52,801 bases of DNA from Chromobacterium piscinae (GTDB lineage Bacteria > Pseudomonadota > Gammaproteobacteria > Burkholderiales > Chromobacteriaceae). Below the pieces are notes generated by a model. It saw only the letters and a list, made by a program, of their open reading frames with translations. It searched no databases and was not told the DNA's origin. Both the position numbers and the translations under genes were made by a program. The stretch is from positions 1 through 52,801 of the forward strand of contig NZ_JAJOHV010000037.1 in NCBI RefSeq assembly GCF_021129175.1, given 5' to 3'. This document shows, piece by piece, positions 28,217 through 47,116 of this stretch; within the stretch, counting starts at the first letter, position 1, and each line of letters starts with the position of its first letter.

Positions 28217-28270
28217 AAAAAAATCGCAATTTGTGCGTTGCAATGTAGCAAAGGTACACAAGGAGACGGC

Positions 28271-29161
28271 ATGACTCGGGTGCTGGTAGTCGGCAGTATC
28301 AATATGGACCTGGTGGCATCCGCCAAGCGGATGCCGAAACTGGGTGAAACGCTGCTGGGCGATGGCTTTGCAACCTATCCGGGCGGCAAGGGCGCCAACC
28401 AGGCCGTGGCCGCCGCCCGCCTGGGCGCGGAAGTGGCGCTGCTGGGCTGCGTCGGCGACGACGCCTTCGGCCGCGACCTGCGCGCCCATCTGGAGCGCGA
28501 AGGCGTCGATTGCGGCCGGGTAGGGACCGTGGATGGTCCCACCGGCATCGCCGTCATCACCGTCAGCGGCGGCGACAACGCCATCCTGGTGGTGCCTGGC
28601 GCCAATCACAAGCTGACGCCGGCGCATCTGGACGCCGCCGAGCAGGCCTTCATCGACGCCGATGTGGTGCTGACCCAACTGGAAATTCCGCTCGCGACAG
28701 TGCGCCGCGCCGCCGAACTGGCCGCCCGCCACAAGAAGCCGCTGCTGCTGAATCCCGCGCCGGCGGTGCCGCTGCCGGAAGAGCTGCTGCAGCGGGTGGC
28801 GTTGCTGACGCCCAACGAACACGAATTCCTGACCATGCTAGCCCAGCCCGACGCCGACTGGCGCTCGCTGCTGGCCGAGCGCCCCGGCAAGCTGGTGATG
28901 ACGCACGGCAAGCACGGCGCCTATTTCGCGTTGGCGCGAGGCCAGTTGCGCCATCAGCCGGGCTTCAAGGTCAAGGCGGTGGATAGCACTGGCGCCGGCG
29001 ACACCTTCAACGGCGCGCTGGCGGCCTTCCTGCCGCTGGGCCTGGAAGAGGCGGTGCGCCGCGCCAACGCTGCCGGCGCGTTGTCGGTCACCCGTCCCGG
29101 CGCGCAGGGCGGCATGCCCACGCTGGCGGAGCTGGAAGCCTTCCTGGAGAGCAAAGCATGA
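28271..29161 (+). CDS. rbsK: Ribokinase
   Basis: A 296-residue PfkB-family kinase that phosphorylates D-ribose at O5. It begins VLVVGSINMDLVASAKRMPKLGET, followed by YPGGKGANQAVAAARLGAEV and the catalytic VDSTGAGDTFNGALAAF near the C-terminus. AAGGAGA precedes the ATG at 28271. It is the first gene of the ribose operon here, whereas in E. coli it follows rbsB. Its stop overlaps the rbsD start by four bases. Confidence 0.95.
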   Translation: MTRVLVVGSINMDLVASAKRMPKLGETLLGDGFATYPGGKGANQAVAAARLGAEVALLGCVGDDAFGRDLRAHLEREGVDCGRVGTVDGPTGIAVITVSGGDNAILVVPGANHKLTPAHLDAAEQAFIDADVVLTQLEIPLATVRRAAELAARHKKPLLLNPAPAVPLPEELLQRVALLTPNEHEFLTMLAQPDADWRSLLAERPGKLVMTHGKHGAYFALARGQLRHQPGFKVKAVDSTGAGDTFNGALAAFLPLGLEEAVRRANAAGALSVTRPGAQGGMPTLAELEAFLESKA

Positions 29162-29556
29162 AAAAACACGGCCATCTGAACCGAGACATCGCCCGCATCC
29201 TGGCGTCGATGGGCCATACCGACAGCCTGGTGATCGCCGATTGCGGCCTGCCGATTCCGCCTGGCGTCGAGTGCGTGGACCTGTCGCTGAGGCTGGGGCA
29301 GCCCGGCTTCATCGAAACGCTGGACAGCGTCCTGGCGGATTTCCAGTGCGAGCGGGCGGTGTTCGCCATCGAGTGCCGCCAGCACAACCCGGCGGTGCAG
29401 GACAGGGCCGAGCGGATGGCGAAGGACGGCGCGGCGCTGGATTTCGTCAGCCACGAAGAATTCAAGCAGCGCTGCCTGGCGGCGAGGGCGGTGATCCGCA
29501 CCGGCGAATGCACGCCGTACGCCAACGTGATCCTGCACTCCGGCGTGATCTTCTGA
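29158..29556 (+). CDS. rbsD: D-ribose pyranase
   Basis: A 132-residue cytosolic protein interconverting the beta-pyranose and furanose forms of ribose, so that ribokinase receives the furanose. The catalytic histidine is H20 in SMGHTDSLVIADCGLPIP. The C-terminal TGECTPYANVILHSGVIF is the usual family end. It is translationally coupled to rbsK. Confidence 0.95.
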   Translation: MKKHGHLNRDIARILASMGHTDSLVIADCGLPIPPGVECVDLSLRLGQPGFIETLDSVLADFQCERAVFAIECRQHNPAVQDRAERMAKDGAALDFVSHEEFKQRCLAARAVIRTGECTPYANVILHSGVIF

Positions 29557-29567
29557 GGAGCCGCACC

Positions 29568-31076
29568 ATGCAAGTGACCATGCGCGGCATCAGCAAGGCC
29601 TTCGGGCCGGTCAGGGTGCTGGAAAATGTCGAGTTCACGCTGCGCGGCGGCGAGATCCACGCGCTGATGGGCGAGAACGGCGCCGGCAAATCCACGCTGA
29701 TGAAGATACTCAGCGGCGTGCACCGCGCCGACGCCGGCGAAATCCTGCTGGACGGCCGCAAGGCCGAGCTGCGCGACACCGCGGCGGCGGAAGCGGCCGG
29801 CATCGCCATCATCCACCAGGAATTGAACCTGATCCCGCAACTGTCGGTGATGGAAAACCTGTTCCTCGGCCGCGAGCCGTCGCGTTTCGGCCTGATCGAC
29901 TACGGCCGCATGCGCCGCGAGGCGAAGGCGCAGCTGGCGGCGCTGGGCGTCGGCGGCATCGATCCCGACGCCGAGGCCGGCAGCCTGTCCATCGGCCAGC
30001 AGCAGATGGTGGAAATCGCCAAGGCGCTGGCGCTGAACGCCCGCGCGCTGATCATGGACGAGCCGACGGCGGCGCTGACCGAGCGCGAGATCGACACGCT
30101 GTTCGGCCTGATGGCCCAGTTGAAGGAAAACGGCGTGGCCATCGTCTACGTCTCGCACCGGATGGAGGAGATCTTCCGTGTCTGCGACCGGATCAGCGTG
30201 CTGCGCGACGGCTGCTTCGTCGGCGAGCGCGAAATCGCCCGCACCGATTTCGACGAGGTGGTGCGGATGATGGTGGGCCGCGAAATCGGCGACCGCTATC
30301 CCAAGCGCGAAGCCGTTCCGGGCGCGGTGCGGCTGAAGGTGGAAAACCTGGCCGACGAGAACATGATCGCCGGCATTAGTTTCGAGGTGCGCGCCGGCGA
30401 AGTGCTGGGCATCGCCGGGCTGATGGGCTCCGGCCGCAGCGACATCCTGAAGACGCTGTTCGGCGCCAAGCGCCGCACCGCCGGCCGCGTCGAGCTGGAC
30501 GGCGAGGAGTTGAAAGTGGCCGCGCCGGGCGACGCCATCGCCGCCGGCCTGGGCTTCGTGCCGGAAGACCGCAAGAGCAAGGGGCTGGTGCTGGGCATGT
30601 CGCTGCGCGAGAACGCCACGCTGGTGCACTTGGACCGTTACGCCCGTCTGGGCGTGGTGAGCGCCGGCGACGAAAAACGGGCGGTGGACGGCTTGATAGA
30701 GCAGCTGCGCATCCGCACCCGCGACGCCGAGCTGGACGTCAAATCGCTGTCCGGCGGCAACCAGCAGAAAGTGGTGTTCGCCAAATGGCTGGCGCGTCCG
30801 CCCAAGGTGTTGCTGCTGGACGAGCCGACGCGCGGCGTCGACGTCGGCGGCAAGGCCGAGATCTACCACATCGTCAACCAGCTGGCCGCCGCCGGCGCCG
30901 CCATCGTGATGGTGTCGTCCGAGTTGCCGGAAGTGCTGGCGCTGAGCAACCGCATCCTGGTGCTGCACGAGGGCCGCCAGGCCGGCATCTTCGACGCCGC
31001 CGGCTGCGACCAGGAAACCCTGATGGCCGCCGCCGCCGGCGGAGCCGCATCCACCGAAACCAGGAAACAAGCATGA
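29568..31076 (+). CDS. rbsA: Ribose ABC transporter ATP-binding protein
   Basis: A 502-residue protein with two fused ABC domains (E. coli RbsA has 501). The first has Walker A GENGAGKST, signature LSIGQQQMVEIAKAL and Walker B ALIMDEPTAAL. The second has a degenerate Walker A (GLMGSGRSDILK), signature LSGGNQQKVVFAKWL and Walker B VLLLDEPTRGVDVG, as is normal for sugar ABC ATPases of this class. The ATG follows GAGGAG after the rbsD stop. The last four bases overlap rbsC. Confidence 0.95.
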   Translation: MQVTMRGISKAFGPVRVLENVEFTLRGGEIHALMGENGAGKSTLMKILSGVHRADAGEILLDGRKAELRDTAAAEAAGIAIIHQELNLIPQLSVMENLFLGREPSRFGLIDYGRMRREAKAQLAALGVGGIDPDAEAGSLSIGQQQMVEIAKALALNARALIMDEPTAALTEREIDTLFGLMAQLKENGVAIVYVSHRMEEIFRVCDRISVLRDGCFVGEREIARTDFDEVVRMMVGREIGDRYPKREAVPGAVRLKVENLADENMIAGISFEVRAGEVLGIAGLMGSGRSDILKTLFGAKRRTAGRVELDGEELKVAAPGDAIAAGLGFVPEDRKSKGLVLGMSLRENATLVHLDRYARLGVVSAGDEKRAVDGLIEQLRIRTRDAELDVKSLSGGNQQKVVFAKWLARPPKVLLLDEPTRGVDVGGKAEIYHIVNQLAAAGAAIVMVSSELPEVLALSNRILVLHEGRQAGIFDAAGCDQETLMAAAAGGAASTETRKQA

Positions 31077-32011
31077 CCCCGCAACAGAAAGCCAATCTGC
31101 AACGCCTAGGCCCCTTCATCGCCCTGGTGCTGGTGGCCGTCGGCCTGTCCGTGATGAGCCCGGACTTTCTCACCGTCAATAATCTGCTGAACGTGATGCG
31201 GCAGGTGTCGATCAACGCCTTGATCGCCTTCGGCATGACGCTGGTGATTCTGCTGGGCGGCATCGACCTGTCTGTGGGCTCCATCCTGGCTTTGTCCTCG
31301 GTGCTGACCGCCACGCTGCTGCAGGCGGGCGTCGACCCCATGCTGGCCACGCTGCTGGGCATTCTGGCCGGCGCGGCGATGGGCCTGTTCAACGGCCTGG
31401 TGATCAGCAAGGGCAAGGTGGCGCCGTTCATCGCCACGCTGGCGACGATGACCATCCTGCGCGGCCTGGCGCTGGTGTTTTCCAACGGCAGCCCGATCAC
31501 CGGTTTCGACAGCGAGCTGTTCTCGATGCTGGGCGGCGGCTACGTCGCCGGACTGGTGCCGGTGCCGGTGGTGTGGATGCTGATCCTGTTCGCCGGCTTC
31601 TGGTTCCTGCTGAAAAAGACCGTGTTCGGCCGCCATCTGTACGCCACCGGCGGCAACGAGGAAGCGGCGCGGCTGTCCGGCGTCAAAGTGGACCGGGTCA
31701 AGCTGTGGGTGTACACCGCTTCCGGCGCGATGTCGGCGATGGCCGGCGTGGTGCTGACCTCGCGGCTCAACTCGGCGCAGCCGACGGCCGGCACCGGCTA
31801 TGAGCTGGACGCGATCGCCGCGGTGGTGCTGGGCGGCACCAGCCTCAGCGGCGGCCGCGGCTGGATTTTCGGCACCCTGATCGGCGCTTTGCTGATCGGC
31901 GTGCTCAACAACGGCTTGAATCTGCTGGGCGTGTCCTCGTTCTACCAGCAGGTGATCAAGGGCGCGGTGATTCTGCTGGCGGTATTGCTGGATCGCAGCA
32001 ACAAGAAGTGA
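31073..32011 (+). CDS. rbsC: Ribose ABC transporter permease
   Basis: A 312-residue inner-membrane permease with eight to ten hydrophobic segments. Family motifs are LNVMRQVSINALIAFGMTLVILLGGIDLSVGSI, and in the cytoplasmic loop FGRHLYATGGNEEAARLSGVKVDRVK, which docks on RbsA. The C-terminal GGRGWIFGTLIGALLIGVLNNGLNLLGVSSF is also typical. It starts within the rbsA stop (ATGA overlap). Confidence 0.95.
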   Translation: MTPQQKANLQRLGPFIALVLVAVGLSVMSPDFLTVNNLLNVMRQVSINALIAFGMTLVILLGGIDLSVGSILALSSVLTATLLQAGVDPMLATLLGILAGAAMGLFNGLVISKGKVAPFIATLATMTILRGLALVFSNGSPITGFDSELFSMLGGGYVAGLVPVPVVWMLILFAGFWFLLKKTVFGRHLYATGGNEEAARLSGVKVDRVKLWVYTASGAMSAMAGVVLTSRLNSAQPTAGTGYELDAIAAVVLGGTSLSGGRGWIFGTLIGALLIGVLNNGLNLLGVSSFYQQVIKGAVILLAVLLDRSNKK

Positions 32012-32070
32012 CGATGGCGGCGCGAGCCGCCCAATGCAGTGCATCATTCCATTTATCAGGGAGCATCAGC

Positions 32071-33006
32071 ATGAAACGCATTCTTACCCCGCTCGTGGCC
32101 GGCATTCTGGCCTTCGGCATCGCCGCCTGCTCCAAGCAGGGTCCGGGCAGCGCGCCGGCCGGCGACGCCAGCGCCGCGGCGGCCGACGGCAAGGTTACCG
32201 TCGGCCTGGCGGTGTCCACGCTCAACAACCCGTTCTTCGTCGAGCTGCGCGACGGCGCGGCGGCCGAAGCCAAGAAGCAGGGCATCAGCCTGATCACCGT
32301 CGACGCGCAGGACGATCCGGCCAAGCAGCAGGCCAGCGTGGAAGACCTGATCCAGAAGAAGGTCAGCGTGATCCTGATCAATCCGACCGACTCCTCCGCA
32401 GTGGCCAATGTGGTGAAGGAAGCGACGTCCAAGGGCATCAAGGTGGTGTCGCTGGATCGCAGCGTGAACGGCGCCGAAGTCAGCGCCCACATCGCCTCCG
32501 ACAACATCGCCGGCGGCGTGATGGCCGGCCAGTATCTGCTGGACAAGCTGGGCGGCAAGGGCCGCATCGTCGAGCTGGAAGGCATCGCCGGCTCTTCCGC
32601 CGCCCGCGAGCGCGGCGAGGGCTTCCACCAAGTGGTGGACAAGAAGGAAGGCGTCAAGCTGCTGGCCAAGCAGCCGGCCGATTTCGACCGCGCCAAGGGC
32701 CTGTCGGTGATGGAAAACATCATTCAGGGCAACAAGGACATCCAGGGCGTGTTCGCGCACAACGATGAAATGGCGTTGGGCGCGGTGAAGGCGATCCAGG
32801 CCGCCGGCCTGAAAAACGTGGCGGTGGTCGGCTTCGACGCCACCCCGGACGCTGTGGCCGCGGTCAAGGCCGGCACGCTGTCCGCCACTGTGCAGCAGCA
32901 ACCGGCGCTGATCGGCCAGTACGGCGTTCAGGCAGCCAAGAAGCTGGCCGATGGCCAGAAGGTGGACAAGTTCATCCCGGTTCCGCTGAACCTGGTCCAT
33001 CAATAA
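32071..33006 (+). CDS. rbsB: Ribose-binding protein, predicted lipoprotein
   Basis: A 311-residue substrate-binding protein of the RbsB type: VGLAVSTLNNPFFVELRDGAAAEAKK starts the first lobe, INPTDSSAVANVVKEA and FAHNDEMALGAVKAIQAAG are sugar-contact regions, and VVGFDATPDAVAAVKAG is conserved near the C-terminus. The signal peptide ends with a lipobox, FGIAAC, before SKQGPGSA and an Ala/Gly-rich linker, so it should be lipid-anchored; E. coli RbsB is soluble in the periplasm. CAGGGAG precedes the ATG at 32071. Confidence 0.93.
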   Translation: MKRILTPLVAGILAFGIAACSKQGPGSAPAGDASAAAADGKVTVGLAVSTLNNPFFVELRDGAAAEAKKQGISLITVDAQDDPAKQQASVEDLIQKKVSVILINPTDSSAVANVVKEATSKGIKVVSLDRSVNGAEVSAHIASDNIAGGVMAGQYLLDKLGGKGRIVELEGIAGSSAARERGEGFHQVVDKKEGVKLLAKQPADFDRAKGLSVMENIIQGNKDIQGVFAHNDEMALGAVKAIQAAGLKNVAVVGFDATPDAVAAVKAGTLSATVQQQPALIGQYGVQAAKKLADGQKVDKFIPVPLNLVHQ

Positions 33007-33020
33007 GCCGCAATCAACCA

Positions 33021-33054
33021 ACGGGGCCGGCGCCTGCGCGTCGGGCCCCGTTTT
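33021..33054 (+). terminator. Intrinsic terminator after rbsB
   Basis: ACGGGGCC (33021-33028) pairs with GGCCCCGT across a GC-rich 17-base loop and runs into TTTT. It separates the rbs structural genes from the downstream regulator. Confidence 0.8.
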
Positions 33055-33100
33055 GCCATATTGCGATTATCATTTCCGTTTCATTGCCCAGCCATATTCC

Positions 33101-34117
33101 ATGAGCAGCTTCAAACGCCTGACCATAGACGACATCGCCGCCCTGGCCGGGGTGTCGCGCACCACCGCCAGCATGGTGCTGAACGGCCATGCCGAGCGCT
33201 ACCGCATCTCGCCGGCCACCGTGGAAAAAGTGGAGAAGGCTGCGCGCGAGCACCATTTCAAGCCTTCCCAGCAGGCGCGCAGCCTGCGCAGCCGGCGCAG
33301 CAGCAGCATAGGCCTGGTGGTGCCGGATCTGACCAACTCCACCCATGCCGCCTTGGCGCAGGCGTTGGAGAACGGCTGCCGCGAGCGCGGCTACCAGCTG
33401 CTGATGGTGACCAGCGACGAAGATCCGGAGCGGGAAAGCTCGGGCATCGGCCAGCTGGCGGCGCGCCAGGTGGACGGCATGATCGTGGTGCCGTGCAGCG
33501 GCGACGCCGCGCGCTATCAGCCCTGGACCGGCAGGCTGCCGTTTGTGTTCGCCGACCGCCACATCCCGGGCAGCGGCATACCGTCTACAGTGACAGACGC
33601 CGGCGACAGCGTCGCCAGACTGCTGTCGCCGCTGCTGGCGGATGGGGTGGATGAGCTGGCGTATTTCGGCGGCCAGCCGGAGCTGTCGGCCAGCCGCGAG
33701 CGTCTGGCCGGCTACCGGCAGGCGCTGAAAGCCGCAAGGTTGGAAGAGGGGACGGATTGGGTGGCCGAGCGGGATTTCCAGCGCGAATCCGGCTACCGGA
33801 TGATGGCTGACTGGCACGCGCGGCATGGCCGCTATCCGCGCGCGCTGTTCACCGCGTCGATCACGCTTTTGGAGGGCGTATTGTCCTTCATCCGCGAGCG
33901 CCACCGGCTGCGGGAGGCGCCGCAATATCTGTTGACTTTCGACGATCATCCCTTGCTGGATTGCCTGCCCTTGCCGATAGACGCCATCCGCCAGAACAGC
34001 GCGGCGTTGGCCGAAGCCAGCCTGGCCCAGGTGTTGGCCTTGTTGCAAGGCGAGGCGCTGGCCGAGCGCGATCTGCGCGTGCCGGCCAGCCTCAACCTGC
34101 GCCGCCTGGCGGTTTAG
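33101..34117 (+). CDS. LacI-family regulator of the Cra/FruR subfamily, downstream of rbs
   Basis: A 338-residue regulator. Its DNA-binding domain, [31 protein letters not shown], matches the distinctive Cra pattern ([21 protein letters not shown]), and the body also follows Cra: [61 protein letters not shown]. The position immediately after rbsB is where E. coli has RbsR, so it is probably the ribose-operon regulator, but a Cra-like protein could respond to a phosphorylated sugar instead. The start at 33101 has no strong ribosome-binding site. The stop overlaps the convergent MFS gene by four bases. Confidence 0.85.
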   Translation: [338 protein letters not shown]

Positions 34118-35307
34118 GCCGATTGCGCAGCCTGCCGCCCGGCGGGTTCGCGCGCTTCGCGCATCATCAGCGAACCCAGCAGGAAAGTGGACGACAGCAG
34201 CGTGGAGAACGCCATCGCCAGCGCGTAGTCGCCATGGCGAAAATCGACCAGCAAGCCGAACACATAGGGCGCCGCCGTGGCGACGAGATAGCTGAGGAAC
34301 CAGAACAGGCTGAAGGTGACCGCCGCCTTGTCCGGCGTCATGCCAGGCTGTTCCTGCGCCAGCGTCACCAGGCTGGGCAGGGGCAGGAAGATGAAGAAGC
34401 CGGCGGCCAGCGCGGCCGCGGCCACCAGTGCGGCATCGCCGCTCCAGCCCCAGGCCTGGGCATGCAGGCCGATCACCGCCAGCAATTGCATCAAGCCCGA
34501 CAGCCGCAGCATGGGCAGCCTGCGCGTGATCTTCCTGGCCAGCCAGATGCCGGCCGCCGTGCCGGCCAGCCCCGCTAATACCACGTATTTCGCCTGCCGG
34601 ATGCCGGCGTTCTGGTAGAAGCTGAACAAAATCACGTAGAAGGACAGCGTGCCGCAATAGGTGAAGGCCAACAGCCAGTTGAAGCGCTCGGCCAGGCCCT
34701 GGCGCAGCGTGTGGCGGGGCCCGTCGCCGACAGGTTTCGCCTCTGCGACGCCATCGGCGCCAAACGTCAGCCACAGCGCCAGGCACAGCACGCTGCCCAG
34801 CGAGATGGCCAGCAGCGTGGCGCGCCAGTCGCCAAACCATCCTAGCATCGACGGCAGGCCGAACAGGATGGCGGCGGTGCCGACATTGAAGGCCACTGCG
34901 TTCAAGCCATTGACGAATGGCCGCTCGGCCGGAGAGAACCATTGCATGACGATGGGCGAGAAATAGACGATGACCAGCGCGCCGCCCAGTCCCATCAGGA
35001 AGCGCGTCAGCAGCAGCCAGGGATAGCTGTGGACGAAGGGCGTCAAGATTCCCAGCGCCATCAGCGCCATCGCCAGCGCGACCGCTTTTTTGGCCAGCAG
35101 CCGGGACAATATGCCGGCGGCGACGAAGGTTCCCAGCAATTTGGCCGCGGCCACGGCGTTGCTGATATGGGAGCCGGCGGCCAGATCGTGGATGCCAAGC
35201 TCGCGCATGATTTGCGGGATGAAGGCGCTGCCGCCGGCCCAGCTCATGCCGAACAGCGCATAGCTGGCAAACAGCAGCGCTTCGATCAGGTATTTATTGG
35301 CTTTCAT
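34114..35307 (-). CDS. Major facilitator superfamily transporter
   Basis: A 397-residue protein with about 12 membrane helices. The loop 2-3 motif is reduced (SRLLAKKAVALAMAL), followed by LLTRFLMGLGGALVIVYFSPIVMQWFSPAERPFVNGLNAVAFNVGTA, which resembles the cyanate/nitrate-type and hexuronate-type MFS groups. The substrate cannot be read from the sequence. It lies 66 bases downstream of a CoA-transferase gene on the same strand, so it may move the acid that enzyme acts upon. It converges with the Cra-like regulator with a four-base overlap. Confidence 0.85.
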   Translation of the reverse strand: MKANKYLIEALLFASYALFGMSWAGGSAFIPQIMRELGIHDLAAGSHISNAVAAAKLLGTFVAAGILSRLLAKKAVALAMALMALGILTPFVHSYPWLLLTRFLMGLGGALVIVYFSPIVMQWFSPAERPFVNGLNAVAFNVGTAAILFGLPSMLGWFGDWRATLLAISLGSVLCLALWLTFGADGVAEAKPVGDGPRHTLRQGLAERFNWLLAFTYCGTLSFYVILFSFYQNAGIRQAKYVVLAGLAGTAAGIWLARKITRRLPMLRLSGLMQLLAVIGLHAQAWGWSGDAALVAAAALAAGFFIFLPLPSLVTLAQEQPGMTPDKAAVTFSLFWFLSYLVATAAPYVFGLLVDFRHGDYALAMAFSTLLSSTFLLGSLMMREAREPAGRQAAQSA

Positions 35308-35373: not shown

Positions 35374-36765
35374 TCAGCCAGTCCAGGTTGGGGCGTGGCT
35401 GTCCAGCGGCATGGCCGGACGTTCCCAGCGCGCAGGCGTCAGGCCCATCCGGGCGGCGTGGCGCACCGCCAGCAAGCGGCCGAAGCCGGAATCGCTTTCC
35501 TCCAGCCAGGGGCGGACATCGTCCAGCGTCGGCACGGGCAGATCCATCGCGCCATCGACGCGGCCCAGGCCGCGCAGCCAGTGCCCGGTTTTCGCCAAGG
35601 ACACCTGCACATGCCAGCTGCCGCCTTCCCGCTGTTGGCGGTGCAATGCGGCGATCGCCCCCAGCGCGGCCAGATAGCCGGCACCGTGGTCCAGCGCCTG
35701 GGCCGGAAAGGCGCGCGGCGCGTCCGAGCCGGCGGCCTGGGCCTCGGCTAGATTGAAGCCGCTGGCGGTTTGGGTCAGAGAGTCGAAGCCGCGTCTGCCG
35801 GCCCATGGGCCGGTATGGCCGTAGGCCCTGAGCGAAACGTAGACGATGCCGGGGCGGAGGCGCGCGATATCCTCGGGAGAGAAACCCAGCCCGGCCAAGC
35901 CGCCCGGACGGTAACCTTGGATGAAGGCATGGGTGTCGGCTAGCAGGCCGCGCAGCGCATCGCGGCCCGCGATTGCGGCCAGGTCCAGTTGCGCGTTGCG
36001 TTTGCCGCGGCCCATGTCGATGTCCAGCGTCGGAATGGTCGGCAGATGCGGGGAGGTGATGTGCAGCACATCGGCGCCATGGACAGCCAGCGCGCGGCCG
36101 GCCACCGGTCCGGCGATGATGCGGGTCAGGTCAAGCGCGCGGATGCCCTGCAATGGACGTTCGGCGCCGCCGAGCGCGAGGGGAGGGGCGTCGCCGATGC
36201 GGGTGATGGAGACCACGGGCTGGGCCGCCACCGCGATGCCTTGCGGATGGGCGTCCCATTCATCGAAGCTGCGCAATGCGGTGGCGACCAGCCCGCGTTT
36301 CGCGGCGGCGTCTTCAAATTCGAATGCGTTCCAGCGAGCGAGGGCTTCGGCTACGGCTGCCTTGTCGTATTCGCAAGCCAACAGGTCCAACACGCCCTGG
36401 CAGTGGTGCGGGAAATTGGTGTGGATGCGCACCCAGCGGCCGTCGCCGCTGCGGTAGATGCCGGCGATTTTGTCCCACGGATCCGCCGGCAGGCCGCCGT
36501 CCACTCGCAAATAGTGTTCGCTGCGGAATTCGACAGCGGCGTGGCGGGCGTCGACGCTGACGGTTTGCGGCTCGCCGCCGCGCAAGGAAAAGAACTCGGC
36601 GGCCGCCAGCCCACAGGCGCCGATGGATGCTTGCGCCGCCGCCGCGATGGCGAAGGAGGAGGGAAGCGCCGCTTCGGTCCCGGACAGATCAAGGCGATGT
36701 ATAGCTGAAGCGTCGAAGCCGCAGTCCAGCCAGAGTTGGCGGGCTGCGCGAAGGGCCATGGACAT
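35374..36765 (-). CDS. Family III CoA-transferase (CaiB/BaiF), long form
   Basis: A 463-residue protein. The C-terminal 260 residues are a family III CoA-transferase: LQGIRALDLTRIIAGPVAGRALAVHGADVL, FIQGYRPGGLAGLGFS, YGHTGPWAGRRGFDSLTQ, and a probable catalytic aspartate in ALDHGAGYLAAL (D359). The first 200 residues also look CoA-transferase-derived (YRSGDGRWVRIHTNFPHHCQGVLDLL) but lack the second aspartate motif, so the chain may be a fused two-domain form. Such enzymes move CoA between organic acids. The ATG at 36765 is taken; an ATG two codons later is equally possible. It is preceded by the S10-like gene with a 44-base gap. Confidence 0.82.
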   Translation of the reverse strand: MSMALRAARQLWLDCGFDASAIHRLDLSGTEAALPSSFAIAAAAQASIGACGLAAAEFFSLRGGEPQTVSVDARHAAVEFRSEHYLRVDGGLPADPWDKIAGIYRSGDGRWVRIHTNFPHHCQGVLDLLACEYDKAAVAEALARWNAFEFEDAAAKRGLVATALRSFDEWDAHPQGIAVAAQPVVSITRIGDAPPLALGGAERPLQGIRALDLTRIIAGPVAGRALAVHGADVLHITSPHLPTIPTLDIDMGRGKRNAQLDLAAIAGRDALRGLLADTHAFIQGYRPGGLAGLGFSPEDIARLRPGIVYVSLRAYGHTGPWAGRRGFDSLTQTASGFNLAEAQAAGSDAPRAFPAQALDHGAGYLAALGAIAALHRQQREGGSWHVQVSLAKTGHWLRGLGRVDGAMDLPVPTLDDVRPWLEESDSGFGRLLAVRHAARMGLTPARWERPAMPLDSHAPTWTG

Positions 36766-36809: not shown

Positions 36810-38087
36810 TTATCGGTCAATTCCATTGTCATTTTTCGAGTCGCCGCCGCTCAGGAAGTCGCGCAGCATCGCCTGCGCGGCGGCGGGTTGATCCCGGGCC
36901 ACGCGCAGCCCGGCGTTCTGGACGATGATTTGGCTGAGGTTGCCATGGCTGCGGATCAGACCCGCGGCCAAGCCGTAAGGCCGCCAAGCTTGGCGTTTTT
37001 GTTGCCGGAATGCGTCGGCTTGTGGTCCGGTTTGGGTGTTGAGCCAGGCGTCGAGTCCGAGATAGTTGCCGGCCATGCAGCATTCGCCGTGGAAGAACAG
37101 CACCTTTAGTTGATCCAGTAGCGGGAGCAGCAAATGTGACGAGTTTTCCAGCCAGACGGCTTCGGCCACCAAGCCGGATTGCGGCTGCAGCTCGTTGTTG
37201 GAGCGGCGGTCGATGCGCAGCGCTTGTTGCACTGACGGTTTTTTCAGGTATTCCCCCAGGGTTTTGGAGGGTGTTTGAGGAGGGTGGCGGATGTCGCGCA
37301 GATCCCGGCCGCAGCAGTGTTGCATGAAACGGTTGATCTCGATGGCAATCCGGCCGGCCGATTGGCGTTGCAGCGCGAGCGGCGAGGCATAGGCGCGAAT
37401 GAACTCGTCCAGCATGGATTGCGCGCGGTTTTTCTCATCCAGATTGATCAGCCGGTGCTGGTACGCGTATTCGATATGGCTGGGCAGCTGGGTTTCCGGC
37501 GCCAGTTGGGGATTGCCGAAACCCAGGCCTTTGAGCGGTATCGGCGGCTGGCCGCCGCTGTTGCCGTCCTGCATGCGGAGTGCCAGCCGCACGATCGAGT
37601 GGGCGGCGGCGGCGTTGCCGAACAGATAGCAGTCCCGTTCGCGGTAGCGCGGCCAGCGCAGCAGGAATTCCTGCAGCGCGTGGTACAGCTGCTGGCTGGC
37701 TTCGTCGTGATTCTCCGGCAGGTAGCGCGGATGGGTGGTGAAGGAAAGGCCCTGGCCCAACGGTTGGTCTATGACCAGAAGATTGGCGTGGTGATGCCAG
37801 CCGAAGGGATTGGAGTAGACGCGGCCGGACGGGTCCAGCAGATAAGGGCCGTGCTCATCCAGCATCGCGTGCAGCGCGGTCCATTCCGGGTCGCCGTTGA
37901 TCCAGACCAGCAATGGCGCTTTCTCCGAGTGGTCGCCCGCCTCGCTGAACCAGAAGTAAAGCCAGCCGCCGGCCGAGTCGCCGACGGAAAGATAGCCGGC
38001 GAGCTGGGTGGTTCGGATCGCGCCGAAACCAGGCAGATGGCTGAGGGCGGCGCTTTCGAACAGGAAGGGATTCGATTGCACGTTCAT
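36810..38087 (-). CDS. Serine carboxypeptidase (S10)-like protein lacking the catalytic triad
   Basis: A 425-residue protein. The fold is recognisable from LSHLPGF, LAGYLSVGDSAGGWLYFWFSEAG, APLLVWINGDPEWTAL, GPYLLDPSGRVYSNPFGWHHHANLLVIDQPLGQGLSF, and LLRWPRYRERDCYLFG, which track eukaryotic carboxypeptidase Y-type enzymes closely. The active site does not: the nucleophile elbow GESYAG is GNAAAA (Ser to A159), the aspartate motif GDxD is GECC (334-337), the histidine motif NAGHMVP is NAGLRVA (His to L394), and the oxyanion segment NGGPGCSS is NGDPEWTA. No signal peptide is evident. The start at 38087 begins the conserved part; the ribosome-binding site is weak. It is probably a non-catalytic binding or scaffold protein; a new active site is possible. 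Confidence 0.75.
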   Translation of the reverse strand: MNVQSNPFLFESAALSHLPGFGAIRTTQLAGYLSVGDSAGGWLYFWFSEAGDHSEKAPLLVWINGDPEWTALHAMLDEHGPYLLDPSGRVYSNPFGWHHHANLLVIDQPLGQGLSFTTHPRYLPENHDEASQQLYHALQEFLLRWPRYRERDCYLFGNAAAAHSIVRLALRMQDGNSGGQPPIPLKGLGFGNPQLAPETQLPSHIEYAYQHRLINLDEKNRAQSMLDEFIRAYASPLALQRQSAGRIAIEINRFMQHCCGRDLRDIRHPPQTPSKTLGEYLKKPSVQQALRIDRRSNNELQPQSGLVAEAVWLENSSHLLLPLLDQLKVLFFHGECCMAGNYLGLDAWLNTQTGPQADAFRQQKRQAWRPYGLAAGLIRSHGNLSQIIVQNAGLRVARDQPAAAQAMLRDFLSGGDSKNDNGIDR

Positions 38088-38296
38088 CGTCGGGTTCTTT
38101 CCGCTCGGCGGCGAGGGCAAGCGTTCGGACTGCGATTAATATGTTATAGACATTGTTTCGAGCTGTGCTTGAGCTTGATAAAACCTGGTGTGATTTTTCA
38201 CGTTCTGTTGTGATTTAAGTTCCCGGCAATAAGCGCCGCCTTGCTGGGGTAACGGCAGCGATGCCGCTTACCAAACCAAACCGACGGAGCATTCCC

Positions 38297-39451
38297 ATGC
38301 TGAGCCTGCACACCAATATCGCGGCACTGAACACCAAGTCCAACATGAACAGCACCCAAGGCGCGCTGTCCACCTCCATGACCCGCCTGGGCACCGGCCT
38401 GCGCATCAACTCCGCGATGGACGACGCCGCCGGCCTGCAGATCGCCACCCGTCTGGATGCGCAAAGCCGCGGCATGACCGTCGCCATGAAGAACGCCCAG
38501 AACGGCATCTCCATGCTACAGACCGCCGAAGGCGCGCTGAACGAAGTGACCAACATCCTGCAACGGATGAAGGACCTGGGCACCGAAGGTTCCAACGCCA
38601 CCACCACCGCCGACGACAAGAAAGCAATGCAAGCTGAGTTCAATCAGCTGGGCAAGGAATTGACCAACATCATGAAGAACACCTCCTTCGGCGGCGAGAA
38701 GCTGTTGCAAGGCGGTAAGCTGACCAAGGCTCTGAGCTTTCAGATTGGTGCCGGCGCGGATGAGTCGATGAAGCTGAGCCTGACTGGCGAGATGACCAGC
38801 CTGGACAATGCTTTGGGCAAGGTATCGGCTCAGTATGAAAAAGAAGGCGGTCCGGCCGCAGGCCCGGCAGCTACTGCCAAGCTGGTTGCAGCCAAGAAAC
38901 TGGTCGTTGATGGCGCCAAGGCTGAATTGGCTTTGGACGCAACTAAGAACACAGAATATAAGACTGCCATTGAAGCCATGGTGACTGCGCAAGGCGCTAT
39001 CGACCCGGCGACTCAAAAAGACCTCAAAGCTGCGAATGATGTTCTGACTGCAGCCAAAGCCGCTTGGGATGGTGAAACCGACGCAACCAAGAAACTTGCT
39101 CTGCAAGCAGACCTGGATAAGGCCGTAGAAGGCTTCGCTTCCGCTTCTGCGGCGGGCAATTCGGATGAAGTGGGCAAGACAGATACCATTACCTCGATCA
39201 ATGCGGCGCTGGATGCCGTCGGCACCGTGCGCTCCGCGCTGGGCGCCAACGCCAACCGTCTGGACCACGTGATCAACAACCTGTCCAACGTGAACAACAA
39301 CACGCTGGCAGCCAAGGGTCGCATCATGGATACCGACTACGCCAACGAAAGCTCCACCATGACCGCCAAGCAGATGCTGATGCAAGCCAGCACTTCCATG
39401 CTGAAGCAAAGCGGCAGCATGAGCAGCCTGGCCATGTCCCTGTTGCAGTAA
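38297..39451 (+). CDS. fliC: Flagellin
   Basis: A 384-residue flagellin. The N-terminal D0/D1 region is MLSLHTNIAALNTKSNMN...LSTSMTRLGTGLRINSAMDDAAGLQIATRL; the C-terminal D1/D0 region is GANANRLDHVINNLSNVNNNTLAAKGRIMDTDYANESS ending in SLLQ. The central 190 residues are variable, Ala/Lys/Asp-rich and probably helical. The site recognised by TLR5 in other flagellins (LQRVRELAVQ) reads LQRMKDLGTE: the key arginine and leucine are kept but charges and size change nearby. ATG at 38297 follows a GGAG. It is a single gene with its own terminator. It may be the filament protein of the lateral-type system at 43-53 kb, but this is not proven. Confidence 0.93.
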   Translation: MLSLHTNIAALNTKSNMNSTQGALSTSMTRLGTGLRINSAMDDAAGLQIATRLDAQSRGMTVAMKNAQNGISMLQTAEGALNEVTNILQRMKDLGTEGSNATTTADDKKAMQAEFNQLGKELTNIMKNTSFGGEKLLQGGKLTKALSFQIGAGADESMKLSLTGEMTSLDNALGKVSAQYEKEGGPAAGPAATAKLVAAKKLVVDGAKAELALDATKNTEYKTAIEAMVTAQGAIDPATQKDLKAANDVLTAAKAAWDGETDATKKLALQADLDKAVEGFASASAAGNSDEVGKTDTITSINAALDAVGTVRSALGANANRLDHVINNLSNVNNNTLAAKGRIMDTDYANESSTMTAKQMLMQASTSMLKQSGSMSSLAMSLLQ

Positions 39452-41941: not shown

Positions 41942-42805
41942 TCAGGCGTGTTCCAGCGCGTTGGTGACCATGTTCTTGATCTGAAGCGCCAGGATGGAGC
42001 CGGGGGCCGGCTTGCCGATGTAATAGACGCCATGGGTTTGCAGAGCCTGGGACAGCTCGTTTTCGTGTTCAAGCGCGTAGCCGGTCAGCACCACGATGGG
42101 CACGGTGGCCGAGTGGCGGCGTATGGTCTCGATCACCTCCATGCAGCTGGTGGGCTCGCCCAGTACCCAGTCCAGCACGAAGGCGTCGAACTCTTCGTGT
42201 TGCATGGCTTGCAACAGCGCCTGCGGCTGGTGGTAGGGCAGGGCGAACAGGCCTTGCTGCACCAGGATCGCCGACAGCAGGTCGGCATCCTTGTCGTCCA
42301 GCACCGCCACCAGCAGCCGCTTGGTGTTGGCGCGCTTGGGCGGACGTATGGTCAGGTAGCCGACTTCATAGCCGTCCTCGCCGTCGAACAGGGTGCCGGG
42401 AAACACGTGCCAACAGTCGTGCAGGCGCTTGGCCAGGAACAGCGGCGCGCAGGAGTCGTCAGCCAGCTGTTCGCCCAGTTGAATCCAGCAGTGGGCTTCG
42501 CCGCTCTGGTTGTTCAGATGCAGGATTGCCGGCAGCAGTTCGTTGTCCATCGGATTCTGGCTGATCTGCTGGCTGTGATCGACCAGAAGGCTGGAGGGCG
42601 GAATATTGAAATACTGGGCCAAGCGCTCCACCTGGGTCAGCTGCCAGGGGCTGCTGCCATTCAGTTTGCGGTAAGCCTGGGAGGTGCTCAGCCCCAGGAT
42701 CTGTTCGATCAGGCTGGCCTGTTGGGCTTCCGGCCAGCGGAACTGTTCCAGTTGCTTGCGAATGTTGTCGCAGATGATTTCGTTGGCGGACTTGGGGGTG
42801 GTCAT
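41942..42805 (-). CDS. Response regulator with N-terminal HTH (BetR-like) and C-terminal receiver
   Basis: A 287-residue protein with reversed domain order. Residues 1-80 form a Cro/BetR-like helix-turn-helix (QASLIEQILGLSTSQAYRKLNGSSPWQLTQVERLAQYFNI). Residues 81-160 are a linker domain (CWIQLGEQL...PFLAKRL-type) of unknown role. Residues 165-287 form a receiver: acidic pocket VLDDKDAD, phosphoacceptor aspartate in FVLDWVLG, threonine in VVLTGY and lysine in YIGKPA, all intact. Probable partner of the convergent hybrid kinase. The ATG at 42805 begins a sequence that leads directly into the HTH. Repeated CATGCG motifs upstream are candidate binding sites. Confidence 0.85.
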   Translation of the reverse strand: MTTPKSANEIICDNIRKQLEQFRWPEAQQASLIEQILGLSTSQAYRKLNGSSPWQLTQVERLAQYFNIPPSSLLVDHSQQISQNPMDNELLPAILHLNNQSGEAHCWIQLGEQLADDSCAPLFLAKRLHDCWHVFPGTLFDGEDGYEVGYLTIRPPKRANTKRLLVAVLDDKDADLLSAILVQQGLFALPYHQPQALLQAMQHEEFDAFVLDWVLGEPTSCMEVIETIRRHSATVPIVVLTGYALEHENELSQALQTHGVYYIGKPAPGSILALQIKNMVTNALEHA

Positions 42806-43117
42806 GGTCGATGTCCCGTCACATGATTTTCATAATCGTGATCCTAGCATCCATGCGGTCGACATGTGCGCAAAAAATGCTCAAACTGGCAATTTTTCCT
42901 AATTTTGCGAATCATGCGTTTGCATTTTCACAACATGCGAAAAAGTACAGATGATTTTTTGCTGACGCGACTCTATTCCATAGTCGGGAATTTGTGAGTG
43001 AATTGCGCTAACTATGTGAATTTAATGGTGGAGTTTATGGGGTGGCTTGGGGCGCAGCTTCGGTGGGGATGAGGATTCGCGCCAGATGGCAGGCATCCGG
43101 CGCAAGAAGTGCGAGAA
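42806..43117. other. 312-base A/T-rich intergenic region between flhA and the response regulator
   Basis: No gene is supported here. CATGCG occurs at 42852, 42913 and 42934; the last two start 21 bases apart, two helical turns, as expected of sites bound from one DNA face. A short inverted repeat CGACT/AGTCG occurs around 42968-42986. The segment is clearly richer in A/T than the flanking genes and probably holds the promoter of the response regulator. Confidence 0.5.
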
Positions 43118-45208
43118 TCAGCCTAAGGTGCCAGTCAGGCTGACCTGGCGGTTTTCCGGCACCTCGTTGTACGACAGCACGTGCAGGCCAGGCGCGAACA
43201 GCCGGCCGTAGCGGGCCAGCAGCGGCCGGATCTGCGGCATCACCAGCAACACCGGCGCCTGGCCCTGCTGCTTCATCTGGTCGCGGATCACCGGCATATT
43301 GGCCTGCAGCTGCTGCAGCACGTTGGGGTCGATCGGGAAGCTGTCCAGTTGCGGCTTGCCGGTTTGCTGGGCCTGGGATAGCGCCCCCAGCAGCAGGTTT
43401 TCCAGATCGGCGGACAGGTTGAAGGCCCGGATTTCATCGCGCGGGCCGACGATGGTCTGGACGATCTGGCGCTTCAGCGCGCAGCGTACCTCGGCTGACA
43501 GCATGATCGGGTCCTTGGTCGTATCGCTGGCTTCCAGCAGGGCGGAGGCGATGGGCACGATGTCCTTCAGCGACACATTGTCCTGCAGCAGCTGGCGGAA
43601 CACGCGCAGCTGCTGCACCGGCGTCAGCGCCTGGCCCAGCGCCGTCGCCAGCTTGGGCGCCAGCGTCGACAGCCGCTCGCCCAGCGCGGCCACGTCGTCG
43701 TGGCGGAACAGTTCGGCCAGGTTTTCGCGCATCACTTTGTTCAAGTGGGTGGCCATCACGCTGGAGCAGTCCACCACCTGGTAGCCCAGTCCCAGCGCCT
43801 TGCTCTTGTCGGCCAGCGCGATCCAGGTGACCGGCATGCCGAAGGCCGGGTCGATGCCGGGAATGCCGTCGATCTCGCCGTAGACGTCGGGCGAGGGAAT
43901 GGCCATCAACCGGTCGGCGTAGACCTCGGCCTCGGCCACCGTGTTGCCGGAGATCTGCACCGCGTACTGGGAGGGCTTGAGCCTGAGGTCGTCGCGCAGG
44001 TTCACCGTCGGCAGCAACAGGCCCATCTGTTCGGATAGGCTCTGGCGCACGCCCTTGACCCGCTTGGTCAGCGGCGCGCCCTGGCCGGCGTCCAACAGCG
44101 TCACCAGCCGGTAGCCGAGCGCGATGCCCAGCGTGTCGGCGTAGGGCAAGGTGTTCCATTCCAGCTCGATTTCCGCTTCGCCCTGCAGCGCGGACTTCAC
44201 CGCGGTCTGGTTCAGGGTATTGGCCGCAACCGGGCGGCGGACATGCATGCGCCAGGCCACATAGCCCAAGAGCGCGGCGAAGCCGAGGAAGGTCGGCCAC
44301 GGCATGCCGGGAATGATGGCCAGGATCAGCATCATGCCGGCGGCGCTCATCAGCACGGTGGGCGAGGCCAGCATCTGGTTGCCCACCTGTTGCTGCATGT
44401 CGCCGTCGTCGCTGATGCGGGTGACGATGATGGCGGCGGCGGAAGACAGCAACAGCGCAGGAATCTGCGCGACCAGGCCGTCGCCTATGGTCATCAGCGC
44501 GTACTGGCGGAAGGCGTCGCCCATCGACAGATTGTGCATCAGCGCGCCGATGGCCACGCCGCCGAACAGGTTGATGATCAGGATCAGGATGCCGGCGATG
44601 GCGTCGCCGCGGACGAACTTGGACGCGCCGTCCATCGCGCCGTAGAAGTCGGCTTCGGTGGCGATGTCGCGGCGGCGCTGCTGCGCCTGCTCCTGGTTGA
44701 TCAGGCCGGCGTTCAGGTCGGCGTCGATCGCCATCTGCTTGCCCGGCAGCGCGTCCAGCGTGAAGCGGGCCGATACTTCGGAAATCCGCTCGGCGCCCTT
44801 GGTCACCACCATGAAGTTGATAATCATCAGGATGACAAACACCACCATGCCGACCACGAAGTTGCCGCCTATCACCACATTGCCGAAGGCCTCGATCACC
44901 CGGCCGGCGGCGTGCGTTCCTTCGTGGCCGTGCAGCAGCACCACCCGGGTGGAGGCCACGTTCAGCGACAGCCTCAGCAGCGTGGTGGCCAGGATGATGG
45001 TGGGGAACACCGAGAAGTCCAGCGGCCGCCGCGCCGACACGCTGACCAGGATCACGATGATGGCCAGCACGATGTTGAAGGTGAACAGCATGTCCAGCGC
45101 CAATGGCGGCAGAGGCAGCATCACCATCGCCAGGATGGCGAGCAGGAACAGCGGGGCGGCGAGCTTGTGGCGGCCGATGTCGGCAAGCAGTTTGGTCAGC
45201 GAGTTCAT
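43118..45208 (-). CDS. flhA: Flagellar export gate protein FlhA, lateral-type cluster
   Basis: A 696-residue protein with about eight N-terminal membrane helices and a large cytoplasmic domain. The FHIPEP-type region reads RRPLDFSVFPTIILATTLLRLSLNVASTRVVLLHGHEGTHAAG, and KGAERISEVSARFTLDALPGKQMAIDADLNAGLI follows, both family signatures. The cytoplasmic domain forms the nonameric ring that receives chaperone-substrate complexes. It is the last gene of fliM-N-P-Q-R-flhB-flhA; it overlaps flhB by four bases. No flhF or flhG follows, unlike polar systems. Confidence 0.95.
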   Translation of the reverse strand: MNSLTKLLADIGRHKLAAPLFLLAILAMVMLPLPPLALDMLFTFNIVLAIIVILVSVSARRPLDFSVFPTIILATTLLRLSLNVASTRVVLLHGHEGTHAAGRVIEAFGNVVIGGNFVVGMVVFVILMIINFMVVTKGAERISEVSARFTLDALPGKQMAIDADLNAGLINQEQAQQRRRDIATEADFYGAMDGASKFVRGDAIAGILILIINLFGGVAIGALMHNLSMGDAFRQYALMTIGDGLVAQIPALLLSSAAAIIVTRISDDGDMQQQVGNQMLASPTVLMSAAGMMLILAIIPGMPWPTFLGFAALLGYVAWRMHVRRPVAANTLNQTAVKSALQGEAEIELEWNTLPYADTLGIALGYRLVTLLDAGQGAPLTKRVKGVRQSLSEQMGLLLPTVNLRDDLRLKPSQYAVQISGNTVAEAEVYADRLMAIPSPDVYGEIDGIPGIDPAFGMPVTWIALADKSKALGLGYQVVDCSSVMATHLNKVMRENLAELFRHDDVAALGERLSTLAPKLATALGQALTPVQQLRVFRQLLQDNVSLKDIVPIASALLEASDTTKDPIMLSAEVRCALKRQIVQTIVGPRDEIRAFNLSADLENLLLGALSQAQQTGKPQLDSFPIDPNVLQQLQANMPVIRDQMKQQGQAPVLLVMPQIRPLLARYGRLFAPGLHVLSYNEVPENRQVSLTGTLG

Positions 45209-46344
45209 GATGCGGGCTCGGGGTCGGACAGTTCGCGGGGGATGGGCAGGTCCGGCAGGGTGGGCCGGCTGCGGCGGCTACCCGCCTGGAACGCCTTCAG
45301 TTGCAAGACATAGGTCAGCACCTGCGCCACCGCGCGGTACAGCGGCGCGGGGATCTGCTGGTTGACCTGGGTGGTGTGGTACACCGCGCGCGCCAAGGGC
45401 GGCAGCGGCAGCACCGTCAGTTTCATTTCCTCCGCCAGTTGGCGGATGTACAGCGCCATCTCGTCCACGCCCTTGGCGACGATGAACGGCGCCTCGGCGC
45501 GGTTTTCGTCGTATTTCAGCGCCACCGCGTAGTGGCTGGGGTTGACGATGATCACGTCGGCGCCGGGCAGCGCCTTGCGCACGCCGCGCTGCGCCATCTG
45601 CTGCTGCAGCTGGCGGATGCGCTGGCGGACTTCTGGGCGGCCCTCGGTGTTCTTGTGCTCTTCCTTGATTTCCTGCTTGCTCATCCGCTGCTGTTTCAGG
45701 AACAGGAACACCTGCAGCGGCAGATCGGCCAGCGCGAACAGCAAAAACACCGCGGCCAGCTTGAGCAGGCAAGACAAGAGCAGGTCGGCAGCGCCGGCCA
45801 GCGTGGGCAGCAGCGGCATGCTGTGCAGCGCGAAGAACTCATGCAGCGCGTCGCTGGCCACGCGGTACAGCAGCCAGCCCAGCACCAGCGCCTTGGCGAT
45901 GGATTTGCCGATCTCGCTGGCGTGCTTGGGCGAGGCCAGCCGCGACAGGTGGGCCAGCGGGTTCATCCGCTCGAACTTGGGGCTGATCTGGTTCAGCACG
46001 AACACCCAGCCGCCGGGAAACAGGCTGAGCAGCAGCATGGTCAGCGGAATGACGGCCAGCGGCGCCAGCATCTTGATCAGCAAGAGCAGGGTGCCGCCGA
46101 ACAGTTTGGACCAGCTGTTTTCCAGCGCGCCCTGGCCGGACAGCGAGGCGAAGGCCAGCGCGAACAGTTGCCGGAAGTCGTCCAGCCAGCCCGGCGCCAG
46201 CCAGAACATCATCTTCAGCGCCAGCAGCAGGCCCAGCGCCGCGGCCAGGTCCTTGGAACGGGGCACCTGCCCCTGCTCGCGCGCCTTGCGCAGCCGCTGG
46301 GGAGTGGCCTTTTCTGTCTTGTCGCCTTGTTGCGCCTCAGCCAT
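45205..46344 (-). CDS. flhB: Flagellar export switch protein FlhB
   Basis: A 379-residue inner-membrane protein with four helices and a cytoplasmic autocleaving domain. It starts with the family's KTEKATPQRLRKAREQGQVPRSKDL. The cleavage site is NPSH in VIIVNPSHYAVALKYD, instead of the common NPTH; the family tolerates serine there. Cleavage switches export from rod/hook to filament substrates. It overlaps fliR by eight bases and flhA by four. Confidence 0.95.
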   Translation of the reverse strand: MAEAQQGDKTEKATPQRLRKAREQGQVPRSKDLAAALGLLLALKMMFWLAPGWLDDFRQLFALAFASLSGQGALENSWSKLFGGTLLLLIKMLAPLAVIPLTMLLLSLFPGGWVFVLNQISPKFERMNPLAHLSRLASPKHASEIGKSIAKALVLGWLLYRVASDALHEFFALHSMPLLPTLAGAADLLLSCLLKLAAVFLLFALADLPLQVFLFLKQQRMSKQEIKEEHKNTEGRPEVRQRIRQLQQQMAQRGVRKALPGADVIIVNPSHYAVALKYDENRAEAPFIVAKGVDEMALYIRQLAEEMKLTVLPLPPLARAVYHTTQVNQQIPAPLYRAVAQVLTYVLQLKAFQAGSRRSRPTLPDLPIPRELSDPEPAS

Positions 46345-47116
46345 GGCCCATCTCCAGCAGGCGGTCCAACAGGCGCAGCGTCTGCTCGCTCAGGCTCAGG
46401 TATTGCGGCGGCAGCACCTGCATCAGCAGAGTCAGGGTGGACAGGCCGAACAGCGTCACCACCGGGAAGCCCAGCGAAAACAGGTTCAGCGCCGGCGCCA
46501 CGCGGTTGATCATGCCGAAGCCGGCCTGCACCACGAAGGTGGCGAACACCACCGGCAGGGCCAGGATCATCGCCGCCGACATCACCCAGCCGACGCTGGC
46601 GGCCAGCACCGGCAGCGAGGCTTGCGGAATGCCGCCGCCCAGCGGCCAGGCGCGGAAACTGGCGTACACCACCTGCACCAGCACCAGATGGCCATCCAGC
46701 GCGAAGAATAGCAGCGCTGCCAAGAGATAGAGCAGGCTGGACACCACATCCGAGCTGTTGCCGTTGCCGGGGTCGTTCATGATGGCCATCGACAGGCCCA
46801 TTTGCGACGACAGCAGGAAACCCAGCAGCGACAACACGGACAAGGTCAATTGAAAGGCGAGGCCGAACAACAGTCCGATGATGACCTGCTCGACGCTGGC
46901 GGCGACGCCGTGCAGCGAGAACGGGTCGATCGGGGAATGGGCGGGCATGCCGGGGATGCAGGCGACGGCCAGGGCCAGCGCCAGACCGATGCGGGCGCGG
47001 ATCGGCATCACCGCGTCGCCGATGAAGGGCGCGATGGCGAAGGCCGCCATCAGCCGGCAGAACGGCCACCAGACGGCGGGGATCAGGTCCAGCAACTGGG
47101 CGTACAGGCCCTGCAT
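46337..47116 (-). CDS. fliR: Flagellar export protein FliR
   Basis: A 259-residue membrane protein with about six hydrophobic segments. Family markers are RLMAAFAIAPFIGDAVMPIRARIGLALALAV, LLFGLAFQLTLSVLSLLGFLLSSQMGLSMAIMNDPGNGNSSDVVSSLLYLLAALLFF and, near the C-terminus, PALNLFSLGFPVVTLFGLSTL. It joins FliP and FliQ in the helical core of the export gate. It begins two bases after the fliQ stop and overlaps flhB. Confidence 0.94.
   Translation of the reverse strand: MQGLYAQLLDLIPAVWWPFCRLMAAFAIAPFIGDAVMPIRARIGLALALAVACIPGMPAHSPIDPFSLHGVAASVEQVIIGLLFGLAFQLTLSVLSLLGFLLSSQMGLSMAIMNDPGNGNSSDVVSSLLYLLAALLFFALDGHLVLVQVVYASFRAWPLGGGIPQASLPVLAASVGWVMSAAMILALPVVFATFVVQAGFGMINRVAPALNLFSLGFPVVTLFGLSTLTLLMQVLPPQYLSLSEQTLRLLDRLLEMGHG

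Follow-up and report, generated by a model that had tools for sequence, protein, structure and literature searches.

A probable S10-fold pseudoenzyme without a catalytic triad in the genus Chromobacterium

Which role remains for a peptidase homolog whose catalytic residues are gone? The window analyzed here—the whole 52,801-nucleotide stretch of Chromobacterium piscinae DNA—encodes a 425-residue protein of peptidase family S10 that, as judged from sequence data, has lost its catalytic residues while its gene has been kept by selection. We consider it probable that this is a Chromobacterium-specific S10-fold pseudoenzyme with a non-catalytic role. Plants are known to have S10 pseudoenzymes that support an active paralog; a stand-alone bacterial one would show the fold being used for a purpose besides cutting, and in a system that is both small and tractable. 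A literature search whose scope took in few subscription papers yielded no description of a Chromobacterium S10 pseudoenzyme. The main text of a survey of bacterial serine proteases does not use the term S10, and that survey counts catalytically inactive homologs in five other serine-protease families (PMC2605481).

The S10-Like Protein

36810..38087, − strand: gene of the putative S10-fold pseudoenzyme; 425 aa, ATG start at 38087, with the 12 orthologs aligning from the same Met

The reading frame translates as 425 codons with no internal stops. Homology to S10 over the entire protein, as proposed in the first-pass annotation, is borne out by the Peptidase_S10 profile (PF00450), which matches with E 1.2e-61 across profile positions 7–420 of 420 and with a score of 209.8 bits against a gathering cut-off of 21.9. 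None of the NCBIfam models matches the protein at E up to 1. Its best match among solved structures is the lysosomal protective protein (E 6.9e-35, residues 16–413), and a profile of the 12 members in the genus matches both that protein (E 5.3e-46) and carboxypeptidase Y (E 8.4e-34). The protein is thus like the S10 peptidases—carboxypeptidase Y and lysosomal protective protein/cathepsin A—in matching along its full length; unlike the active ones, it lacks the Ser/Asp/His triad, the NGGPG loop, and a hydrophobic N-terminus. We infer an alpha/beta-hydrolase fold from this homology; a structure prediction based on seven alignment rows (mean pLDDT 42) is too poor to place the cleft or confirm the fold.

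The N-terminus is not strongly hydrophobic by hydropathy scan (first 45 residues, 11-residue stretches): the maximum does not exceed 1.36 in any of the 12 orthologs, compared with 2.69 in L015, an active-looking S10 relative. The protein would therefore be expected to stay in the cytosol. An antisense open reading frame at 37275–38213 (+ strand) was rejected as a gene, as it contains 0 to 4 stops per ortholog and is interrupted in all but one of the 12, which is expected of a shadow frame in GC-rich DNA.

Loss of the Catalytic Site

37611..37613, − strand: codon 159, position of the former nucleophile Ser; Ala in the window, Ala in 3 and Gly in 9 of 12 orthologs (alignment to lysosomal protective protein)
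37077..37079, − strand: codon 337, position of the former catalytic Asp; Cys in the window, Cys in 6, Ser in 4 and Gly in 2 of 12 orthologs
36906..36908, − strand: codon 394, position of the former catalytic His; Leu in the window, Leu in 10 and Gln in 2 of 12 orthologs
37875..37898, − strand: former oxyanion loop, residues 64–71; NGDPEWTA for NGGPGCSS, with columns 65–70 variable in the genus

How much of the S10 active site is left? The register comes from a HMMER alignment to the lysosomal protective protein, with which the genus-family profile agrees. It sets A159 against the nucleophile Ser, C337 against the Asp of GDxD, and L394 against the His of GAGHMVP, which we take to be the catalytic residues of this S10 enzyme. 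The Ser of GESYxG is Ala or Gly in 12/12 orthologs, and the His of GAGHxVP is Leu or Gln in 12/12. The Asp of GDxD is Cys, Ser, or Gly in 12/12 in the register of the lysosomal protective protein; against the relatives L014 and L015, whose loop is one residue longer, the Asp register is uncertain. Position 66, the second Gly of the NGGPG oxyanion loop, is likewise non-Gly in every ortholog. The first-pass annotation had reported that all three catalytic residues (at A159, within 334–337, and at L394) and the oxyanion segment were replaced in the window protein. The motifs it quoted are correct, the alignment confirms the change from NGGPGCSS to NGDPEWTA, and the triad is missing from all 12 orthologs. 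The particular replacements that it singled out—A159, C336/C337, and L394—are conserved only in part, with the counts listed above and with column 336 being Cys in six orthologs and Tyr in six.

The nearest relatives found outside the genus are full-length bacterial S10 proteins at 26–28% identity, namely L014 (genome G338), L015 (genome G119), and L077, which is encoded on an Embleya plasmid; the profile-comparison probability is 100. They retain the GGPG, GESY, and NAGH/GSGH motifs, and all have the triad Ser and His, unlike the Chromobacterium protein. Of the 136 positions invariant in the 12 orthologs, 47 are absent from these three active-looking proteins. Among the genus-fixed residues that they lack are H119, R121, and Y122 (which follow the GLSF motif), H163 (four residues past the old Ser), and R398 (four past the old His), all of them near active-site motifs in sequence. 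C258 is also invariant in the 12 orthologs.

Could the altered site have acquired another chemistry? The first-pass annotation had raised the prospect that the adjacent C336 and C337 give the protein a new activity. Catalysis by this pair, or by some other relocated residue, would fit the CC that the window protein carries at the old Asp motif and the invariance of E335 and H163 in 12 orthologs. The CC pair occurs in only 4/12 orthologs, however, with Cys at neither position in another 4/12, and oxyanion columns 65–70 vary. New catalysis is thus very unlikely, and the paired-cysteine proposal does not survive the comparison. Column entropy in the oxyanion loop (1.39 bits) and nucleophile elbow (1.35 bits) exceeds the mean of 0.86 bits, while the Asp (0.67 bits) and His (0.66 bits) segments fall below it; when the four active-site segments are pooled and compared with random segments, their variability is not significantly greater (P = 0.21). 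The S10 sequence of the fold seems to have been retained while the chemistry has not.

Distribution and Selection

Where else is the gene found? With the protein as the query against 61 genomes of the family, orthologs were found in the genus only, in 12 of its 19 genomes (0/42 elsewhere), and all 12 reading frames are intact. A profile of the 12 recovered no further members from 398 genomes of the phylum. Viral contigs and phages contained no relatives, and a plasmid search gave one distant match. When the same 61 family genomes were searched with PF00450, the S10 proteins gained were all distant: some in three genomes belonging to a single other genus, and a second copy in G021, the only one of the 12 carriers to have a second S10. 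This copy (L106) lies elsewhere in that genome and is conventional, with GESYGG. The genome of the window itself has a single S10 protein.

The statement that S10 proteins are mainly eukaryotic was too strong, as PF00450 is present in 69/398 phylum genomes (own genome included), although all of the matches listed, except that of the window, cover only part of the profile. Full-length S10 matches in a 369-genome sample of the class were confined to the window and two other genomes. In the class sample of G338, where its order is represented by one genome, relatives of the intact type were found only in G338 and G119 (2/94). As a control, we took 61 other S10 loci, the best-scoring places among those that the searches listed: 60 yield an open reading frame that contains GGPG and is 300 aa or longer, with GESY retained in 60/60, a figure that is supporting only, because the GGPG filter favors intact proteins. 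The control locus L034 has an open frame of 222 aa only.

Is the gene maintained or on its way out? A codon model with a single omega gave 0.160 across the 12 Chromobacterium orthologs and fitted far better than omega = 1 (lnL −10306.7 vs. −10913.2; kappa fixed at 2.0, same tree), so that the dN/dS comparison suggested in the first-pass annotation comes out on the side of constraint. When nine local genes were fitted in a second run (7 to 12 sequences per gene), omega was 0.156 for the S10-like gene, 0.181 for flagellin, and 0.039–0.117 for the other seven. The S10-like protein is under purifying selection, though less constrained than most of its neighbors.

A decaying gene would be consistent with that omega, the second highest of the nine, and with the lack of the gene in 7/19 genus genomes, which makes it dispensable at the genus level. 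Against decay are the 12/12 intact frames, an omega far below 1, and the absence of any S10 remnant, at E up to 5, in 6/6 examined flagellin loci of genomes without the gene (G011, G014, G016, G015, G020, and G022); for the seventh such genome, G023, the evidence is the whole-genome search, which gave no match. Decay is in the main refuted by omega and the intact frames, and as an account of this gene it is hardly credible. Of the two signs of disuse in close relatives named in the first-pass annotation, absence is thus seen in 7/19 congeners and frameshifting in none, with 0 frameshifted copies observed. Its reading of a maintained pseudoenzyme rather than a decaying pseudogene stands, given 12/12 triad-less proteins, 12/12 intact frames, and an omega of ~0.16. 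By parsimony, the triad would have been lost before the carriers diverged.

Neighboring Genes and Candidate Partners

38297..39451, + strand: flagellin gene; the S10-like gene runs divergently from it in 12/12 genomes (window + 11 others)
35374..36765, − strand: CoA-transferase family III gene; downstream with a 44-bp gap in the window, adjacent and co-directional in 9/12 genomes including the window
34114..35307, − strand: MFS transporter gene; further downstream, nearby in 9/12 genomes including the window
38144..38149, − strand: candidate −10 element of the S10-like gene; TTATAG on the + strand, which is CTATAA on the strand of the gene

Does gene order point to a partner? The adjoining CoA-transferase keeps an Asp (residue 359) that aligns with an Asp of 5yit. 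This residue is probably catalytic, because it is Ala in the near-identical PDB entry 5yiy; its catalytic role is our assumption. A suspected loss of Asp in this enzyme (HVQVSL) was dismissed when the alignment showed another, kept Asp. The S10-like protein might bind and stabilize or regulate the CoA-transferase, in analogy to tea SCPL5. The probably catalytic Asp and the adjacent, co-directional arrangement in 9/12 genomes, with a gap of 44 bp in the window, would suit such a companion. The remaining carriers (3/12; G025, G026, and G027) have no such neighbor, however, and their best genome-wide matches to the CoA-transferase reach only 34% identity in G025 and G027 and 42% in G026. Conversely, the CoA-transferase adjoins flagellin in three genomes from which the S10-like gene is absent (G011, G014, and G016).

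The tea protein also sets limits to the analogy. CsSCPL5, a non-catalytic companion among the plant SCPL acyltransferases, is an S10-type protein with the triad T-D-Y that supports the active SCPL4 (PMC11886809). The Chromobacterium protein is like it in being of S10 type with an altered triad, and the role of CsSCPL5 is non-catalytic (PMC11886809). Only two of three triad residues are changed in CsSCPL5, as against three of three in the Chromobacterium protein (PMC11886809). Moreover, the partner that CsSCPL5 supports is an active S10 paralog (PMC11886809), and no second S10 was found in the genome of the window, which sets its protein apart from a companion of the plant type. We regard the role of CoA-transferase companion as possible but doubtful.

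A chaperone or regulator of the neighboring flagellin is a less probable alternative still. It would account for the divergent arrangement with flagellin in 12/12 genomes, with a shared intergenic region of 185–214 bp, while the CoA-transferase and MFS genes are variable. Six examined genomes, however, have the flagellin without the S10-like gene (in G015, G020, and G022 an MgtC-family gene adjoins flagellin instead), and plain inheritance can explain the shared position. The conserved palindrome on the flagellin side also counts against this link, as it is found in 3/3 S10-lacking loci looked at as well. For the same reason the palindrome, GTGATTTTTCAC, was rejected as a regulator site of the S10-like gene and assigned to the flagellin side. 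On the S10 side, 10/12 loci have TTATAG exactly and the remaining two differ from it by one base, and [TG]TATAG was not found in 3/3 S10-lacking loci looked at.

What, then, might the protein do? Because the triad is gone, the N-terminus is not hydrophobic, and the genome of the window has no second S10, a non-catalytic role in the cytosol appears most likely for this presumed pseudoenzyme, and binding is its likeliest remaining role as far as we can infer. It would act stoichiometrically, holding a ligand or a partner protein instead of hydrolyzing it. The likeliest binding face would be the remodeled former cleft with the genus-fixed H119/R121/Y122, H163, and R398, and gene order offers the adjoining CoA-transferase and flagellin as candidate partners. 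More tentatively, and with considerable doubt, an S10 peptidase may have become, in this genus, a cytosolic protein that binds a ligand or serves as a scaffold, has H119, R121, Y122, H163, and R398 newly fixed in the former cleft, and controls the adjacent flagellin or CoA-transferase.

Other Features of the Region

A palindrome-like GTGATT[TA]TT[CT]AC lies upstream of flagellin at 38190–38201, in 12/12 S10-bearing and 3/3 S10-lacking loci looked at, and the genome of the window has a single occurrence of the pattern TGTGATTWTTCACR. The window flagellin (38297–39451, + strand) shares 97% identity with its G018 counterpart and only 69–70% with those of G027 and G028, although its neighboring genes most resemble the ones in G027 and G028; this discordance suggests that species have exchanged flagellin genes. 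An exoproteome report lists CV_3011 as flagellin D (PMC3661913), a tag not tied to the flagellin locus of the window. In the CoA-transferase family III protein, ~200 residues precede the best Pfam-matched stretch (205–397). The MgtC and MFS genes flank a ribose-type ABC transport cluster (28238–34117; PfkB kinase, ABC ATPase, permease, binding protein, and LacI regulator), which some congeners lack in part or altogether. At 41942–47116 (− strand), FHIPEP (FlhA), FlhB, and Bac_export_1 (FliR) family genes stand next to a regulator that contains BetR and response-regulator domains; these FlhA/FlhB/FliR-family genes place the region in a flagellar cluster.
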